A DNA stretch of 38,288 bases, taken from the NCBI GenBank assembly GCA_021815315.1, contig JAKAHB010000004.1, forward strand, positions 1 through 38,288, read 5' to 3'. Shown piece by piece: positions 35,155 to 36,519 of this stretch (position 1 is the stretch's first letter; each line of letters opens with the position of its first letter). Both the position numbers and the translations under genes were made by a program. The stretch is from a bacterium. GTDB taxonomy: Bacteria; Patescibacteriota; Minisyncoccia; Portnoybacterales; JAKAHB01. The notes under the pieces are model-generated. The model searched no databases. It saw only the letters and a program-made list of their open reading frames with translations, and had not been told where the DNA came from.

Positions 35155-35730
35155 TTAGTAAAACTTTTTGATTACCGAGGTTACTACGCCGCCGATGCGC
35201 AAATCATTTTGCGGACGAATTGGCGGATAATCTTTATTGGCGGGGAAAAGAACAACTTCCCCGTCTTTCTTTTGAAAATATTTCATTGTCCAACTGCCAT
35301 CAACCTCGGCAACGACGATGTCGCCGTTTTTTGGCTCTTTGTCTTTTTCCACGATCACCAAGTCATCAGGAACGATGCCGGCTTCAATCATGGACAGACC
35401 GGTGACCTTGAGCATATAGTTCTGTTCGGGCCGGGTTAGCAGATATTGATCGAGAGAGATCGTAGCCATTATTTCTTGTTCGGCCAGCGTGGGGAACCCC
35501 GCCTCAATCGTGCCTAGCACTTTTAACTGATGGTTGAGATTCTTGGGGAGAAGCTTGCCCTGTTCGTCTTTTTCAATAATATTTTCCGAAATTAATTTTT
35601 CGGTCAGTTTCCAGGCGGAGTTAACCGAACTGTAACCAAAAACTCGCATCATCTCCCGGTACGAGGGAAGACGTTTTCTGTCTTGATAAAACTTACGTAA
35701 TTTTAAAGTGGCTTTTTCAACTGAATTCAT
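35155..35730 (-). CDS. lexA: LexA repressor (SOS regulator, S24 autopeptidase)
   Basis: 191 residues. N-terminal winged helix (about 1-65) with LPSYREMMRVFGYSSVNSAW and KLTEKLISENIIEKDEQGK. The autocleavage site is Ala77-Gly78 in GTIEAGFPT; the catalytic pair is Ser113 (KVTGLSMIEAGI) and Lys150 (DGSWTMKYFQ), with spacing like E. coli LexA (84-85, 119, 156). RecA filaments on single-stranded DNA trigger cleavage, releasing SOS genes. No clear promoter is seen right before the start; the nearest upstream promoter, carrying a GAAC-N4-GTTC site, belongs to the small gene upstream on the same strand. A shared, autoregulated transcript is therefore likely (inferred). Confidence 0.93.
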   Translation of the reverse strand: MNSVEKATLKLRKFYQDRKRLPSYREMMRVFGYSSVNSAWKLTEKLISENIIEKDEQGKLLPKNLNHQLKVLGTIEAGFPTLAEQEIMATISLDQYLLTRPEQNYMLKVTGLSMIEAGIVPDDLVIVEKDKEPKNGDIVVAEVDGSWTMKYFQKKDGEVVLFPANKDYPPIRPQNDLRIGGVVTSVIKKFY

Positions 35731-35799
35731 TTTTGAAAATAAGATTAAAATAAAAATTATTATCCTGGAAGGAAAGTCGAGTATGCCGTATTAGGCGAT

Positions 35800-35833
35800 G
35801 TGGGAATATTTAAACTCATTTAAATATTCCCAC
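35800..35833. repeat. Perfect 15-bp inverted repeat around the stop codon of the lexA-linked gene
   Basis: Arms 35800-35814 and 35819-35833 with a 4-base loop. The right arm is the last five sense codons of the minus-strand gene and the stop codon (35816-35818) lies in the loop. No T-run follows on the minus strand, so it is not a typical terminator; it could slow transcription or protect mRNA ends between the small gene and lexA. Confidence 0.6.
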
Positions 35834-36139
35834 GATGGTCACGATAACTAAAGCGATTGTTGTGAAGACTAAAGCTTTTGTCCAAAAGTTTAAAATTTTT
35901 GCCGATTTTGAACTGGTCAGCGAGAATTCTTTCACCACGTCCTTAAAATTGTTTAGACACATAGCCAGTTCTTTATCGGTTTTTAATTTTAACAGCGAGA
36001 TTAAATAATTTTGGAAATTCGGTGCTTCTGAGCTTGGATTTAAGCCATATTTGTAACCGCCATTTTGTATCCCTTTTATCAGTTCTTCCGCTGAGGAACT
36101 TCCATCATATTTTTCTAGTGCCTCTTTTAAGCTCCCCAT
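35816..36139 (-). CDS. Small tail-anchored membrane protein, probable SOS-regulated gene
   Basis: 107 residues. The N-terminal about 78 residues are soluble and helical (GSLKEALEKYDGSSSAEELI, LKTDKELAMCLNNFKDVVKE). The C-terminus is one hydrophobic helix (ALVFTTIALVIVTIVGIF) ending FK, so it is tail-anchored with its bulk in the cytoplasm. No known family was recognised. Its promoter has a GAAC-N4-GTTC box in the spacer and lexA lies directly downstream on the same strand. By analogy with YneA/SulA/SidA-type genes next to lexA it could inhibit cell division during DNA damage; this is inference from location and topology, not from sequence similarity. Confidence 0.6.
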   Translation of the reverse strand: MGSLKEALEKYDGSSSAEELIKGIQNGGYKYGLNPSSEAPNFQNYLISLLKLKTDKELAMCLNNFKDVVKEFSLTSSKSAKILNFWTKALVFTTIALVIVTIVGIFK

Positions 36140-36180
36140 ATTAGGTTTAAAAATAAATAGTTGGCTGTCTCTCTAACTAT

Positions 36181-36209
36181 ATTATAAGTGAACAATAGTT
36201 CGTTGGCAA
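36181..36209 (-). promoter_or_regulatory. Promoter with LexA-box-like operator, upstream of small gene and lexA
   Basis: Minus-strand TTGCCA (36204-36209), 17-base spacer, perfect TATAAT (36181-36186). The spacer contains the palindrome GAAC-AATA-GTTC (36190-36201), which equals the core of the Gram-positive LexA box (CGAAC-N4-GTTCG). A second inverted repeat ATAGTT/AACTAT (36157-36162 with 36175-36180) covers the predicted start of transcription. A repressor bound to the spacer would block polymerase. Confidence 0.7.
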
Positions 36210-36225
36210 CTGTTTTGGTTGTGGA

Positions 36226-36256
36226 TAAAAAATCTCCGCGCCGGGTTGGCGCGGAG
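36226..36256 (-). terminator. Terminator of the 84-residue unknown gene
   Basis: Perfect 9-bp GC stem (36234-36242 with 36248-36256), 5-base loop, then A/T6 on the minus strand. Confidence 0.9.
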
Positions 36257-36264
36257 CGGCTTGC

Positions 36265-36519
36265 CTAGGCGAGCATAATAACCGGGAGGTCTTGCTCTTG
36301 GGGCTGGCCCAGGGCTTTGGCCAGGGCCGAAAGGGCGGCCTCTCCGGCAGGAAGGAGCACTTGAACCAGCAAAAAGCTTTCGTGCTCTTTCGCCAGCCCG
36401 ACATCGCCCGTCTCGTTTGGGCAGGAGACGATGAAGAGGTTTTCCCCAGGAATGGGTTTCCTTAGGCGGAGAGACATAGCCTCCACCTCCGAGGGTTTGA
36501 GGAAAATAAAAGTTTTCAT
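36265..36519 (-). CDS. Hypothetical small protein
   Basis: 84 residues from ATG at 36519, chosen because a G-rich Shine-Dalgarno (AAGGGGG) lies 6 bases upstream; a longer frame to 36567 would cover that site. Sequence features: KTFIFLKPSEVEAMSLRLRK, ENLFIVSCPNETGDVG, EHESFLLVQVLLPAGEAALS, ending LPVIMLA. It looks like a compact alpha/beta protein with no membrane helix. No family is recognised. It has its own promoter and terminator, so it is a genuine monocistronic gene. Confidence 0.65.
   Translation of the reverse strand: MKTFIFLKPSEVEAMSLRLRKPIPGENLFIVSCPNETGDVGLAKEHESFLLVQVLLPAGEAALSALAKALGQPQEQDLPVIMLA

Follow-up and report, generated by a model that had tools for sequence, protein, structure and literature searches.

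A conserved LexA operator and a probable autoregulated SOS operon with a small orphan gene in a Patescibacteria bacterium

In Firmicutes and Actinobacteria, the autoregulated promoters of lexA carry the palindrome CGAAC-N4-GTTCG, and the SOS box consensus of S. venezuelae is tCGAAC-N4-GNNCGa (PMC9380542). In several Gram-positives, the neighbours of lexA are SOS division inhibitors with little mutual homology (PMC6851548); in two of them, YneA and SosA, the membrane helix is N-terminal and the C-terminal part lies outside the cell (PMC13396833, PMC6851548). YneA, SosA, ChiZ and DivS are all small one-helix proteins, encoded beside lexA under a LexA box by genes divergent from or adjacent to lexA. 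A LysM domain is present in YneA and ChiZ. LexA control of the DNA-damage response has reportedly been described for Patescibacteria by Sanchez-Osuna, Barbe and Erill in 2017 (Environ Microbiol 19:3465, doi 10.1111/1462-2920.13826). A sentence in a paper that cites it places this work among direct-repeat LexA motifs (PMC7739468).

The locus analysed here comes from the same superphylum, and its LexA uses a palindrome. It shares the core GAAC-N4-GTTC with the Firmicutes and Actinobacteria promoters, and differs from them by its Patescibacteria host, by T...A consensus flanks (TGAAC-N4-GTTCA), by a diverged recognition helix and by a recA gene devoid of box. An earlier interpretation made from the letters alone (the sequence-only reading) had taken Gram-positive LexA as its point of comparison; the host is a member of the Patescibacteria and not a Gram-positive. 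The window, that is the whole stretch of 38,288 nucleotides analysed, is one contig of a 99%-complete genome of 669 kb in 27 contigs, whose relatives, where named, belong to Parcubacteria, Portnoybacteria and other Patescibacteria. Along the minus strand, the order is terminator-like hairpin, TTATCCACA, TTGCCA, spacer, TATAAT, 107-aa ORF, inverted repeat and lexA, with the following features:

36234..36256, minus strand: intrinsic-terminator-like hairpin with T-run, ending the upstream unit (promoter scan)
36220..36228, minus strand: DnaA-box-like TTATCCACA, exact match, directly upstream of the -35
36181..36209, minus strand: sigma-70-type promoter, TTGCCA (36209-36204), 17-nt spacer, TATAAT (36186-36181)
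36189..36202, minus strand: LexA operator by weight matrix and conservation, CGAACTATTGTTCA (CGAAC-TATT-GTTCA), in the promoter spacer, core at 36190-36201
35816..36139, minus strand: 107-aa ORF, an orphan, with a predicted helical cytoplasmic part and a C-terminal membrane helix (residues ~86-106)
35800..35833, minus strand: perfect 15-bp inverted repeat, GTGGGAATATTTAAA-TGAG-TTTAAATATTCCCAC, overlapping the stop codon of the 107-aa ORF, no T-run
35155..35730, minus strand: lexA, 191 aa, diverged winged HTH and S24 peptidase, with the A77-G78 cleavage site, S113 and K150

A good codon score and no Pfam match were obtained for an 84-aa ORF located immediately upstream of this set (36265-36519, minus strand).

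The sequence-only reading had reported a near-consensus promoter with GAAC-N4-GTTC in its spacer. Direct reading of the sequence confirmed it: 11 of 12 consensus positions match, no promoter-like match within 35700-36300 is better, and the lexA promoters of relatives show the same layout. The core at 36190-36201 is a perfect palindrome. A 20-nt weight matrix was built solely from the lexA promoters of other genomes, the window site being left out; its consensus, aGTGAACGATCGTTCAC(C/T), lies mostly between TTGACA and TATAAT. Scored with this matrix, the window operator reached 15.7 bits, 5 bits more than any other site of the window, the runner-up (10.8 bits) falling within a murA-like gene. 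When the window was shuffled 20 times by a Markov model, no site scored above 13.7 bits.

Loss of the box in relatives had been named beforehand as one finding that would overturn the interpretation. A clear lexA orthologue (45-76% identity) is present in eight near relatives; every one of them has kept the box in the same promoter slot, and it is perfect in seven. The spacer boxes of these relatives read TGAACGTTCGTTCA, TGAACGAATGTTCA, TGAACGATTGTTCA, TGAACGAGCGTTCA, CGAACGAGCGTTCG or TAAACGAACGTTCA, the last having one core mismatch. Among 80 wider lexA homologues spanning several phyla, 62 have a perfect GAAC-N4-GTTC at most 500 nt upstream of lexA, versus 14 of 1,339 control windows drawn from the same loci, and a site in the same slot is seen across Patescibacteria, Nitrospirota, Omnitrophota and Deltaproteobacteria. 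Judged by these comparisons, the box is a genuine operator of LexA, and lexA is very probably autoregulated by LexA through it, as had been proposed; the conserved box, the top matrix score and the identity of the LexA protein all support this.

Concerning that protein, it passes the NCBI TIGR00498 lexA equivalog (124.4 bits for a cut-off of 110.95) and contains the S24 peptidase domain PF00717 (1.4e-28), and residues A77, G78, S113 and K150 are invariant among nine LexA orthologues. The winged HTH, PF01726, scored 12.1 bits over residues 12-45 for a cut-off of 23.7, and by this match it is diverged. A recA gene is present in the genome. LexA identity, operator and gene order are established by sequence comparison.

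The most probable organization is an autoregulated SOS operon, in which a LexA-repressed promoter, the 107-aa gene and lexA form one transcript. The earlier claim that lexA comes next on the same strand and has no other clear promoter was verified: no second minus-strand promoter-like site was found by the promoter scan in the gap between the 107-aa ORF and lexA. Together with the terminator-like hairpin directly upstream of the promoter, this argues for the shared operon that had been suggested. The layout has precedents in 11 other Patescibacteria loci, where a different small ORF lies between box and lexA, and in the lexA-dinB arrangement of L156 described below. We regard co-regulation of the 107-aa gene with lexA as likely.

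In an undamaged cell, a LexA dimer bound to CGAAC-N4-GTTCA between the -35 and the -10 would exclude RNA polymerase. Upon DNA damage, RecA on single-stranded DNA would trigger LexA self-cleavage at A77-G78 by S113 and K150, and the promoter would open. A single transcript would then yield the 107-aa tail-anchored protein followed by fresh LexA, which would reset the switch. We infer repression by occlusion, RecA-driven release and co-transcription in this scheme, RecA-driven cleavage and repression being modelled on the LexA family. The strong hairpin lying over the stop codon of the 107-aa ORF could uncouple lexA from that ORF. The region of the inverted repeat folds with a z of -4.4. The hairpin was discarded as a terminator, having no T-run and not being called by the terminator scan, and as a repeat element, being single copy in the genome.

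The 107-residue protein had been described as having a single C-terminal membrane helix, and this was confirmed, its last ~20 residues being hydrophobic (Kyte-Doolittle 2.38 over 19 aa from residue 88-89). Given this single hydrophobic helix, the protein is probably anchored by its tail, and its helical part is predicted to be cytoplasmic. Structure prediction had been proposed as a check; AlphaFold, run on the single sequence, gave an all-helical model of low confidence (pLDDT 52), from which nothing further was drawn. Searches of 54 other related genomes, and of viral contigs, phages and plasmids, yielded no homologue. Weak Pfam and NCBIfam matches (SbmA_BacA, transporter) are at chance level and take in the membrane helix, and were rejected.

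It could be that the 107-aa ORF is non-functional, either an insert that arrived recently or is decaying, or a hairpin-bearing leader, so that only the autoregulation of lexA matters. The ORF is absent in every relative, and in the nearest ones the box stands directly upstream of lexA. It is AT-rich (36% GC versus 44-51% in its neighbours), GC is flat over codon positions (0.37/0.33/0.37), and a perfect hairpin covers its stop. However, an ORF of this length is expected by chance in such a composition with a P of about 0.001, the true frame outscores the other five, start and stop are intact, and the membrane helix at the C-terminus is clean. Moreover, unrelated small genes recur at the same operon place in other Patescibacteria. 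A non-functional ORF is therefore unlikely in our opinion. The in-frame codon score, 0.077, is positive but below that of the lowest training gene (0.087), and coding support is moderate. Because of its 36% GC, the gene looks foreign or young. If it is functional, as we favour, its product is most likely an effector that is specific to the lineage, induced by damage and anchored in the membrane.

A more precise role had been put forward for it, that of a division checkpoint. By this proposal, the 107-aa protein would be an SOS division inhibitor of the YneA/SosA kind, induced together with lexA, inserted in the membrane and blocking the divisome until DNA is repaired. It has the setting expected of one, a LexA-boxed promoter beside lexA, as well as the small size and the single membrane helix, and the scarce homology among the Gram-positive inhibitors makes the comparison conceivable. 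Its architecture is different. The protein is not homologous to YneA, SosA, ChiZ or DivS; no LysM domain was detected in it with Pfam or NCBIfam, and with PHROG only a 14-bit match at chance level. Its helix is at the opposite end, C-terminal, so that the rest most likely stays in the cytoplasm, and its gene is apparently co-transcribed with lexA, whereas those of YneA and SosA, divergent or adjacent, lie outside the lexA transcript. As the helix of YneA and SosA is N-terminal and both act from outside, the likeness is one of setting and not of structure. The checkpoint role is thus not supported, and a division inhibitor of this type appears improbable.

How far LexA control extends was examined in the rest of the genome. 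The core GAAC-N4-GTTC occurs there five times and the reversed control pattern 14 times, such that the bare core is weak evidence. The sequence-only reading had made the position of the box in the promoter its main argument, and this was upheld: position and conservation carry the case, the core alone being weak. A chance match, with lexA not controlled by the box, would agree with five bare cores not exceeding the reversed control, but it is already contradicted by the occupation of the same promoter slot across the four groups named above, and is extremely improbable. No full box CGAAC-N4-GTTCG is present in the genome, so the flanks of the box are asymmetric here.

Of the other four exact cores, three lie within genes (lysS, a ribosomal protein gene and a lipoprotein-like one), and the fourth precedes a 384-aa ORF by 39 nt; no recognisable promoter was found around any of the four. 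When two mismatches were allowed, 58 genome sites were counted versus 55 for the control, hence no signal at this level. In relatives, the exact sites examined outside lexA promoters fall within ORFs. Upstream of recA there is no box, the best site having three mismatches in the 8-base core, and dinB (IMS) is absent from the genome. Other SOS genes had been expected to share the box; none of those tested in this genome carries it. The SOS regulon looks minimal, with the reservation that the matrix was scored on the window rather than on the whole genome, and a few weak regulon sites may have been missed. A DinB-type polymerase gene follows lexA in many other Patescibacteria, and at one locus (L156) a perfect box drives lexA and then dinB. 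For this reason, it appears that the lineage of the window has lost dinB, the usual target, and has kept the autoregulated repressor and the 107-aa gene.

Of 27 Patescibacteria lexA promoters, 17 have the DnaA-box-like TTATCCACA at the same position, directly upstream of the -35, with at most one mismatch (12 of them perfect), versus 2% of control windows and one of 35 lexA promoters outside Patescibacteria. It has 16 copies in the genome of the window and is not specific to lexA, since some copies precede other genes. Another motif, CCGG(C/T)CTTTACAAGTTATCCACA, has four intergenic copies in the genome of the window (L191, L192, L195, L199).

In the 11 aligned Patescibacteria loci mentioned above (Taylorbacteria, Giovannonibacteria and others), the ORF between the boxed promoter and lexA is conserved and 65-71 aa long, counting only ORFs complete in the alignment. 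A profile search of 379 sampled genomes of the phylum recovered seven copies, all adjoining lexA; six have a perfect TGAAC-N4-GTTCA box, and the locus of the seventh is truncated. The family was recorded at L050-L053, L056, L058, L105, L111, L112, L115, L117 and L178-L184. At L012, a similar ORF (near 2075-2270) lies directly downstream of lexA, not upstream. The family has no match in Pfam or NCBIfam and none in PHROG above chance level. The protein is predicted with confidence as a two-helix hairpin, its tail being loose and uncertain, and all that a fold search returned was generic hairpins of helices (best E 0.88). It resembles the 107-aa protein by its place in the operon (boxed promoter, small gene, lexA), and is not homologous to it.

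A conserved operator is identified for one LexA group in bacteria that are ultra-small and mostly uncultured, which provides a testable SOS switch. The extra small gene of the operon varies by lineage, and this points to unrecognised damage-induced small proteins. A broader and tentative view would be that Patescibacteria have a minimal SOS circuit, in which LexA mainly targets the operon that encodes it and the position between operator and lexA hosts fast-turning-over small effectors, a conserved two-helix protein in one clade and an unrelated tail-anchored one here. Such effectors might be damage checkpoints, or modulators of LexA or RecA, in cells without most other SOS genes.

A second LexA group was encountered among the relatives. 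The promoters of L016, L018, L020, L021, L023 and L024 contain no GAAC box. Near the -10 they have perfect direct repeats (TTTCGGTTTTCTTTCGG, TTTCTATTCTCTTTCTA) with a period of 11 bp, the pattern that a direct-repeat LexA operator should show. This group may be the one described in the 2017 study of Sanchez-Osuna and co-workers. In L016-L023 and L026, which are relatives from the same order or class, LexA (winged HTH and S24 peptidase) and a DNA methyltransferase are encoded in one open frame. The fusion was confirmed with Pfam in five cases, by N6_N4_Mtase or N6_Mtase/Eco57I domains, and cleavage triggered by RecA could separate the repressor from the methylase. The methyltransferase part of the L020 fusion reads like a C5-cytosine enzyme.
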